Assembly (NCBI RefSeq): GCF_022651205.1
Contig: NZ_JALCQI010000007.1
Coordinates: 1-51,669, forward strand
Source: Limosilactobacillus sp.
GTDB lineage: Bacteria; Bacillota; Bacilli; Lactobacillales; Lactobacillaceae
Length of the DNA: 51,669 nucleotides
Direction: 5' to 3'
Under the pieces are notes generated by a model. The model ran no database searches. It was not told the origin of the DNA and saw only the letters and a list, made by a program, of their open reading frames with translations. Positions 7,845 to 51,192 of this stretch are shown here, one piece after another (the stretch's first letter is position 1; the number at the start of each line of letters is the position of its first letter). A program made the position numbers and the translations under genes.

Positions 7845-7997
7845 CAATTTTATTAGCGAAAGATCAAGCAAAAAAGCGGAATGCAATCTGCACCCCGCTA
7901 ATAATAAACAATTTTAAAATTGTTTTATTTAACTCGTCAGCCCGGCAATTTTAATCACCTAGGCGAGAAGCGGGTGCTCCTGCTTTTTCTTTCAACG
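7845..7997 (-). promoter_or_regulatory. L20-type ribosomal protein leader upstream of infC
   Basis: The 150-base leader between promoter and infC contains the block GCAGGAGCACCCGC, then GCCGGGCTGACGAG, and ends with an intrinsic-terminator hairpin (7875-7899). The order matches the Firmicutes L20 leader, in which L20 binding favours the terminator. Recognition is from memory of the motif, not from a covariance model. Confidence 0.8.
7875..7899 (-). terminator. regulatory terminator in the infC leader
   Basis: AGCGGGGTG / CATTCCGCT stem followed by six T on the minus strand. It sits ahead of the infC ribosome site, so it works as an attenuator rather than an operon end. Confidence 0.8.
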
Positions 7998-36859: not shown

Positions 36860-37204
36860 TAAAAAAGTTCCAATACCTGATCGTCACCAAGTATTGGAAC
36901 TCGTTTTGTACTTATGAGGGGTTCGACCTATTAGTTCTGTCGTCCGCTTCCTCATAACATCTACGGAAGGAATCTTGCCACTTTGCACTGGAACTTAATT
37001 ACTAAATACAAACTTTTGATTCTCATCTTCCGCAAAGTCGCTTTTTAATCTGATACCGCTCTAGTAGTGCACCCTGGTAACCCCAATTTAAAATCAAGAT
37101 CTTTCTGGTTACTCTTACGTTGCTTCTAGCCTACTCCTTAACTTCCTTCGGCTCTACTGAGACGGGAGGTTCAGTGCTTTAACACTGCCTCGCTTTCCTT
37201 CCTC
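36860..37204 (-). ncRNA. unassigned structured non-coding RNA (about 345 nt)
   Basis: The gap between the YbjQ and CPBP genes holds a transcript with its own consensus promoter and intrinsic terminator on the minus strand and no supportable reading frame. Several hairpins can be drawn: GAGG-CAGTG / CACTG-CCTC near the 5' end, AGTAACC / GGTTAC in the middle, and ACTTTGC / GCAAAGT enclosing the 3' half; the 5' GTGAGG can pair with CCTCAT near the 3' end. The 3' part contains AGCGGAC and, a few bases later, ACTAATAGGTCGA, very like the 3' end of 23S rRNA. It does not carry the conserved blocks of RNase P, tmRNA, SRP or 6S RNA. Identity unknown. Confidence 0.75.
36866..36901 (-). terminator. terminator of the ncRNA
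   Basis: 11-bp perfect stem AGTTCCAATAC / GTATTGGAACT followed by six T on the minus strand. Confidence 0.93.
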
Positions 37205-37210
37205 ACCAAT

Positions 37211-37239
37211 AATATACCACCTCTAGTAAGCGTTTTCAA
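37211..37239 (-). promoter_or_regulatory. sigma-A promoter of the ncRNA
   Basis: TTGAAA (37234-37239), 17 bases, then TATATT (37211-37216) with a TGG extension on the minus strand. It begins four bases after the CPBP gene stop, and the predicted start is near 37204. Confidence 0.88.
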
Positions 37240-50912: not shown

Positions 50913-51140
50913 AAAAAAGTCCCGTAGAATCCTTTCTACGAGACGAATTTACTCCGCGGTACCACCCGAATTTCCATGAGTTAACTCATGACACTTCACG
51001 CCATAACGCGGCATACGTTATTACCTACTCGAAGTTCAGTAATAATTTTGATGGATGAGTTCGTTGTCAATAATTCTCGTGTTCACAGCACCACACGATC
51101 TCTGAAGAATTAAGTAACAATTACTACTTCCAATTCGATC
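50913..51140 (-). promoter_or_regulatory. T-box leader of leuS
   Basis: Minus-strand leader with Stem I (GGAAGTAGTAA ... GAACTCATCC), where the specifier codon CTC (Leu, 51057-51059) follows GAA and precedes the purine A. The T-box sequence GGGTGGTACCGCGG is at about 50954-50967, followed by the terminator at 50919-50944. A Leu codon at the expected position agrees with the gene. Confidence 0.93.
50919..50944 (-). terminator. T-box regulatory terminator of leuS
   Basis: GTCTCGTAGAA / TTCTACGGGAC stem followed by six T on the minus strand. Confidence 0.9.
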
Positions 51141-51192
51141 AAATATTTAATGAATATTCTAACAACCCGCATTCGTAAATGCAAGCACTAAA

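Follow-up and report, generated by a model that had tools for sequence, protein, structure and literature searches.

The window, i.e. the whole 51,669-nucleotide stretch of Limosilactobacillus DNA analysed here, carries on its minus strand, from 37239 to 36861, a stand-alone gene for a non-coding RNA, which consists of a promoter, a folded core, a clade-specific hairpin and an intrinsic terminator. That this gene is real is near certain, and its core is best read as a new RNA family, without a match in Rfam 15 and set apart from the raiA motif by description only. Concerning its function, we propose, with a confidence that is evenly balanced, that it encodes a structured regulatory RNA which acts in trans and is itself subject to carbon catabolite control. 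The gene occurs in single copy per genome in two genera, with its own promoter and terminator and with nearly invariant unpaired segments in its core; we infer that the RNA is transcribed, that CcpA binds its promoter, and that it acts in trans on a partner.

A stand-alone gene for a structured RNA

The conserved core of approximately 240 nt lies at 36964..37204 on the minus strand, as delimited by BLASTN, by alignment and by a match to the covariance model R1 at 36962-37214, which includes 10 bases on the promoter side; its 5' end at 37204 is predicted, having been placed from the -10 element. The intrinsic terminator with its T tail follows at 36861..36902 of the same strand. The initial annotation had seen this terminator but underestimated its stem, which comprises not 11 but 17 pairs (36902-36865). 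The stretch from 36860 to 37204 folds better than 100 out of 100 shuffled versions (z -4.63), and no open reading frame of at least 60 aa overlaps it on either strand, so that both the structured nature of this stretch and its lack of a reading frame had been correctly recognized.

Searching the entire window against Rfam 15 at gathering scores yielded no match at 36860-37204. In the rest of the window, the same search found two tRNAs as well as a T-box leader (50936-51148, minus strand) and a ribosomal protein L20 leader (7862-7991, minus strand), both above the Rfam cut-offs. With lax thresholds (E<=10 for the stretch alone, E<=5 for seven homologous loci), only sub-threshold matches fell onto the core. 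Those on the stretch itself (mir-230, MIR7696, snoU18, NsiR1) as well as those on the homologues (ncr1015, RsaH, miRNA models) are far under gathering and were rejected, with RsaH reaching 24.8 bits (E 3.5) in one locus; the alignments of such weak matches that were looked at chiefly involve terminator stems or low-complexity sequence. Also rejected was 6S RNA: in the 50 genus genomes, the 6S model RF00013 matches at E 0.001 or better in no more than 12, always at other places, and the RNA described here is present in seven of those 12. The 6S RNA of this genus thus seems to be either poorly covered by the model or absent in many of its members. Altogether, conservation in two genera, covarying helices and the lack of any Rfam 15 match support the original view of an unassigned structured non-coding RNA.

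The fold of the conserved core

All elements of the core are read on the minus strand. Its closing helix P1 is formed by GGAAGG (37197..37202) and CCUUCC (36965-36970), where a G-C pair has changed to A-U in 6 of 28 and in 5 of 33 sequences. P1 is followed by P2 (37166..37191), a hairpin that varies between the aligned homologues and is reduced or missing in some of them. The alignments and a match to the junction model R2 (37061-37161) then define P3 with its three-way junction (37056..37166), which is composed of P4 (GCCGAAG...GUAGGC, 37152-37129), AGAAGCAACGUAAG (37127-37114), P5 and CCAGGGUGC. P6 (36977..37041) is again delimited by the alignments; its strands are GCGACUUUGCGGAA and UUCCAGUGCAAAGUGGC, and its loop contains GAAUC (37022-37018). 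The core ends with the 3' strand GAUUCCUUCCG (36964..36974), which is the pairing partner in P1, and it is to this conserved strand that AAGATTCCTT belongs, which had initially been taken for a piece resembling rRNA. Two alternative pairings exist for GAUUCCUUCCG: its GAUUC could form a pseudoknot with GAAUC in the P6 loop, for which the structure-free alignment A2 (12 sequences) contains no compensatory change, and its CUUCCG fits CGGAAG of P6.

Without guidance, RNAalifold recovered P1, P2, P3, P4, P5 and P6 from A2 (12 loci picked for an intact P2), with 46 pairs, 10 of which show compensatory changes. When our hand-set structure was imposed on the same alignment, 93.5 % of the cells were paired, compared with 34-46 % when the partners were slid, and 12 pairs were found changed on both sides, compared with 1-6. 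Across 33 sequences from both genera, 95.2 % of the cells are paired and 25 pairs have changed on both sides (8-14 with slid partners), in an alignment that was fitted to the model and thus favours it; 29 distinct sequences of the genus, in a likewise model-fitted alignment, contain 16 such pairs (3-9 with slid partners). (The 33 loci are those of A5; A7 is without L054 and A9 without L053; a 31-locus alignment left out L001 as a duplicate of L002, the decayed L010, and L022, which lies at a contig end.) P3 is the helix with the strongest support. P6 is nearly invariant and therefore offers little covariation, and in the Paucilactobacillus copies L057 and L058 it is different. For GUGC in the junction more than one pairing is possible, and here the hand-set and RNAalifold structures differ. 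The most conserved part of the RNA is this multi-helix junction rather than a single exposed seed.

Distribution in two genera

The sequence is present in related genomes. BLASTN detected the RNA in 38 of the 50 genus genomes, and R1, a covariance model built from 12 sequences, found the core in 40 of them with a single match each. Over 397 genomes of the family (40 genera), R1 matched 27 genomes belonging to two genera, with the sister genus, presumably Paucilactobacillus, carrying the RNA in all seven of its genomes. A scan of 84,980 named species genomes with a degenerate pattern, which relies on exact matching and misses diverged copies, returned 33 loci, i.e. 25 in Limosilactobacillus, two in Paucilactobacillus (vaccinostercus and suebicus) and six in Lactobacillus or Lactobacillaceae entries that bear no newer name; reuteri, vaginalis, oris, pontis, panis, frumenti, mucosae, coleohominis and secaliphilus are among the species matched. 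In phage, plasmid and viral-contig collections the RNA was not found.

Ten of the 50 genus genomes have no R1 match (G009, G011, G013, G015, G016, G017, G018, G026, G035 and G044), and since seven of these are at least 90 % complete, the RNA is dispensable. Eight of the ten were inspected at the site behind the CPBP gene and contained no R1 match there; the other two, G015 and G026, have no CPBP match. One of the seven is the complete genome G035, in which genes and a tRNA abut with zero intergenic DNA at the corresponding locus (L136, G035:C1:811500-813700). This probably reflects an artefact in that record, which would likely explain the missing RNA.

The junction model R2 gave 35 matches at E<=0.1 in the 397 family genomes, distributed over nine genera, with eight matches outside of the two genera. 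The three best of the latter (7e-5, 5e-4 and 6e-4) were rejected, as on inspection they appear to fall within coding sequences or at the end of one. Over 398 genomes of the class, R2 found 14 matches besides that of the window itself (E 9e-4 to 0.1), with approximately 40 expected by chance. In all R1 and R2 searches of more than 40 genomes, stricter filters applied, at which weak matches are lost.

Changing neighbours

Within the genus, the RNA is usually found 3' of a gene for a CPBP protease, sometimes with a gene in between, as in L008, where this position is taken by a gene for a 221-aa sigma-70-like protein (L008:785-1450, plus strand; Sigma70_r4_2 and Sigma70_r2). The CPBP protease was rejected as a partner of the RNA: it is present in 48 of the 50 genus genomes with or without the RNA, and in Paucilactobacillus the gene immediately upstream is alsD-like at five of seven loci (confirmed by Pfam for one, assigned by likeness for the others). 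Of the remaining loci of this genus, L187 has an upstream gene that is presumably phospholipase-D-like, and in L188 the RNA stands behind a ribose-operon-like run, in which RbsR, ribokinase, RpiA and ribose pyranase score above their cut-offs, with the ABC components being best matches below theirs. In L193, the RNA follows rbsR and rbsK plus CPBP. A match to the LacI family was seen by eye upstream of the RNA, on the same contig and strand and within approximately 7 kb, in at least 33 of the 40 genus genomes that carry the RNA. All three such proteins tested, from G023, G038 and G121, are RbsR above cut-off, two of them belonging to these 33 genomes. The downstream genes differ between species as well and in some loci are on the opposite strand, and in the window a TATAAT-like site is located between the terminator and a YbjQ-like gene. 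The neighbours thus vary across species and genera, i.e. the RNA stays while its surroundings change.

A conserved cre-like box in the promoter

The promoter (37211..37239, minus strand) had been correctly identified as TTGAAA (37239-37234) and TATATT (37216-37211) separated by a 17-base spacer, which also contains an extended -10 TG. Promoter-type motifs are no rarer in shuffled versions of the surrounding kb (2.5 expected) than in the kb itself (2 observed), so that the weight of the argument rests on conservation in relatives. In all 49 distinct upstream versions (L085 was omitted for want of upstream sequence), the layout is the same, with a palindromic box that starts inside the -35 element and is followed by the -10 element; in every one of them, the distance from the start of the box to the core is 34 or 35 bases. 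In the window this box is TGAAAACGCTTACT (37225..37238, minus strand), which has a single mismatch to TGNAANCGNTTNCA.

Full matches to TGNAANCGNTTNCA occur in 39 of the 49 promoters, nine have one mismatch (those of the window's clade, with its weaker 13-of-14 box, and of L044, L049 and L087), and four mismatches are found in the decayed copy L010 only. A box with no more than one mismatch is thus present in 48 of 49 promoters from both genera, compared with 17 of 3000 random 68-mers drawn from the same loci with the RNA excluded. When the published consensus TGWAANCGNTNWCA (PMC5986886) is used, the corresponding numbers are 45 of 49 promoters and 26 of 3000 random 68-mers. The window by itself contains a single site with up to one mismatch to TGNAANCGNTTNCA, compared with 2.6 expected by chance, so that it is the fixed place of the box across species that constitutes the evidence. 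Perfect boxes number 9, 10, 4, 10 and 16 in five genomes (4, 2, 2, 4 and 4 with a reversed control pattern), and 11 of 13 long loci have a perfect box at the RNA promoter, with one further perfect box among all 13 (in L187). CcpA itself scores above cut-off in 46 of the 50 genus genomes. A box overlapping the -35 element is the established arrangement for repression by CcpA. Such conservation points to a regulated promoter, and judged from the sequence of the box, control by CcpA is likely. In the decayed copy (L010/L043, G012:C39:28470-28688), the four-mismatch box coincides with a poor -10 element, a broken terminator stem and a low core score of 121.5 bits, as if the whole unit were decaying together.

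The 23S-like hairpin

The initial annotation had drawn its name for the gene from a 23S-like 3' end. The underlying blocks, GCGGAC (36942-36947), ACTAAT (36930-36935) and GGTCGA (36923-36928), do exist, in a hairpin (36912..36957, minus strand) delimited by its sequence and by comparison of loci, and they occur in the same order as in the 3' end of the genome's own 23S rRNA, GCGGACCATTACTAATCGGTCGA. There, too, the ACUAAU loop sits in a short hairpin flanked by the GCGGAC and GGTCGA blocks, which we take to be helix 101. The likeness as such, however, is weak. With strict scoring, the best local alignment between the RNA and the last ~1.5 kb of the 23S rRNA of a relative (G029) is indeed that of the hairpin, but its score is also reached by 230 of 2000 dinucleotide-shuffled versions of the RNA, i.e. 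it is not beyond chance; for the hairpins of L003 and L006, 194 and 165 of 500 shuffles, respectively, are as good. With loose scoring, most of the RNA aligns elsewhere in the same ~1.5 kb, with 20 of 1000 shuffles being equal, which is uninformative on the hairpin.

In the window and in L003/L004, L006, L073, L077 and L088, the hairpin separates the core from the terminator. L010 has a degraded version of it, and it was not seen in the close relative L005 or in the remaining loci read. Between L001, L003 and L006, its stem varies in a paired way while ACUAAU is constant, which indicates a real hairpin. It is an add-on of the window's clade outside of the conserved core. The gene as annotated is real but was named after its least conserved part.

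A model for the function of the RNA

The location of the box over the -35 element strongly suggests that CcpA would block transcription as long as a preferred sugar is plentiful. Upon exhaustion of this sugar, the block would be lifted and the RNA would be made. It would then close P1 around P2, the P3-P4-P5 junction and P6, and a protein or ligand could bind to the conserved junction (GAAG...GUAGG, AGAAGCARCRUAAG and CCAGGGUGC) and the P6 loop that are thereby presented; mRNAs are the less likely partners. The outcome may be a metabolism adjusted to poor sugars. As it is the whole junction and not one exposed seed that is conserved, binding of a protein or ligand, raiA-like in character, is tentatively favoured over base-pairing in the manner of RsaI. 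A bolder version of this model, which we consider improbable though worth spelling out, sees in the RNA a small ornate class that serves as a catabolite-gated switch or RNP core and alternates between a state with P1 closed and another in which it is opened, leaving the purine-rich 5' end free; a metabolite or protein signalling that sugar is short in these lactobacilli would set the choice. Since GAUUCCUUCCG is complementary to the 5' end (GGAAGG, in P1) as well as to CGGAAG...GAAUC of the P6 loop, the RNA could change states in this way; covariation favours the closed state, and complementarity alone would suggest the opened one.

The most serious competitor of this protein- or ligand-binding RNA, which we regard as a real but clearly minority possibility, is a base-pairing sRNA that is also made upon release of CcpA but whose exposed segments pair with mRNAs for sugar use. 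The precedent is RsaI itself, an RNA that CcpA represses when glucose is in excess and whose pairing sites are Shine-Dalgarno regions or a 3' UTR (PMC9266662). Our RNA has the predicted cre box in its promoter as well as pyrimidine runs, CCUCCC and CCUUCC, of the kind that can pair with Shine-Dalgarno sequences, but CCUUCC is part of P1, CCUCCC at the border of P2 and P3 is missing from some homologues (L024, L028 and L029), and conservation is strongest in a multi-helix junction. The box could also be read by another protein of the LacI family, the ribose repressor RbsR, in which case the same RNA would respond to ribose and not to the general sugar state. The frequent LacI-family genes upstream, their identity as RbsR where tested and the ribose-operon-like run in front of the RNA in L188 fit such a scheme. 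We nevertheless consider it unlikely, as the box is retained in G014 and in six members of the window's clade that have no LacI match among the matches listed (down to approximately 149 bits), a LacI gene is present in six of the ten genomes without the RNA, and four 20-kb rbsR loci contain a perfect box only at the RNA promoter.

Other readings fare less well. A role in cis, as a leader or riboswitch whose terminator governs the gene downstream, would be in accordance with many homologues, where the terminator comes right after the core and a same-strand gene is often next, but among the loci compared this gene is not constant; it varies by species, is on the opposite strand in part of them and, in the window, is separated from the terminator by the TATAAT-like site, all of which makes this reading very unlikely. 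Even less can be said for a small mRNA or dual-function transcript: in some loci the longest frames starting in the core do exceed 60 aa, but over the 36 loci scored they vary in length between 16 and 127 aa and no reading frame is conserved, the window has a frame of 34 aa and no ORF of 60 aa in this stretch, and indels in the alignment do not come in threes. Equally hard to credit is the idea that the hairpin at 36912-36957 copies the end of 23S rRNA in order to titrate a ribosome-binding or processing factor, or that the gene is a decayed piece of rRNA. The order of the three blocks and the constancy of ACUAAU in a covarying stem speak for mimicry, but many shuffled sequences align just as well and the likeness is confined to a hairpin of a single clade, which even L005 lacks.

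Limosilactobacillus reuteri and its relatives are bacteria of the gut and of food, and are widely used as probiotics and known as gut symbionts. In a literature search, outside of which lay most subscription papers and bioRxiv, we found neither a report of the RNA described here nor any regulatory RNA of L. reuteri and its relatives. With its genus-wide occurrence, its nearly invariant junction and its apparent wiring to CcpA, this RNA would make post-transcriptional carbon control in these bacteria accessible to direct testing, and structural studies gain a compact new fold in its core. A more general lesson is that the eye-catching rRNA-like piece turned out to be the part of the gene that evolution has kept least.

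Comparison with known RNAs

Structured RNAs from lactobacilli have been described before. Motifs tabulated earlier for Lactobacillales include Lacto-rpoB and Lacto-usp (PMC2864571). ROOL, GOLLD and OLE are likewise non-coding, structured and found in or near lactobacilli, but they are much longer and are represented in Rfam (PMC12286853), where our RNA has no match. The structured lncRNA of L. salivarius differs by its length of 520 nt and its location on a megaplasmid (PMC5643018).

RsaI, which we take to be listed in Rfam as RsaOG, shows no relation to the RNA described here in sequence or structure by Rfam at E<=10. What RsaI (RsaOG) of Staphylococcus aureus shares with it, by the published description, is a stand-alone non-coding gene and the logic of CcpA control (PMC9266662), which in our case is based on a predicted box; the difference lies in the other genera and in a closed multi-helix core of ~240 nt. 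An architectural parallel exists with the raiA motif RNA of Clostridium, for which one study used a custom-built profile (PMC12286853). It is described as an RNA of ~205-210 nt with a compact fold, a closing P1, a three-way junction, pseudoknots and many conserved unpaired bases, and as having no expression platform (PMC11751092). Size, a single compact fold, a closing P1, a three-way junction, conserved unpaired bases, the lack of an expression platform and, if the candidate pairing of the P6 loop holds, a pseudoknot are thus common to both, as far as the layout can be compared by description; by the same description only, the two differ in that P1 of the RNA reported here closes a loop that contains P2, the P3 junction and P6 (PMC11751092).
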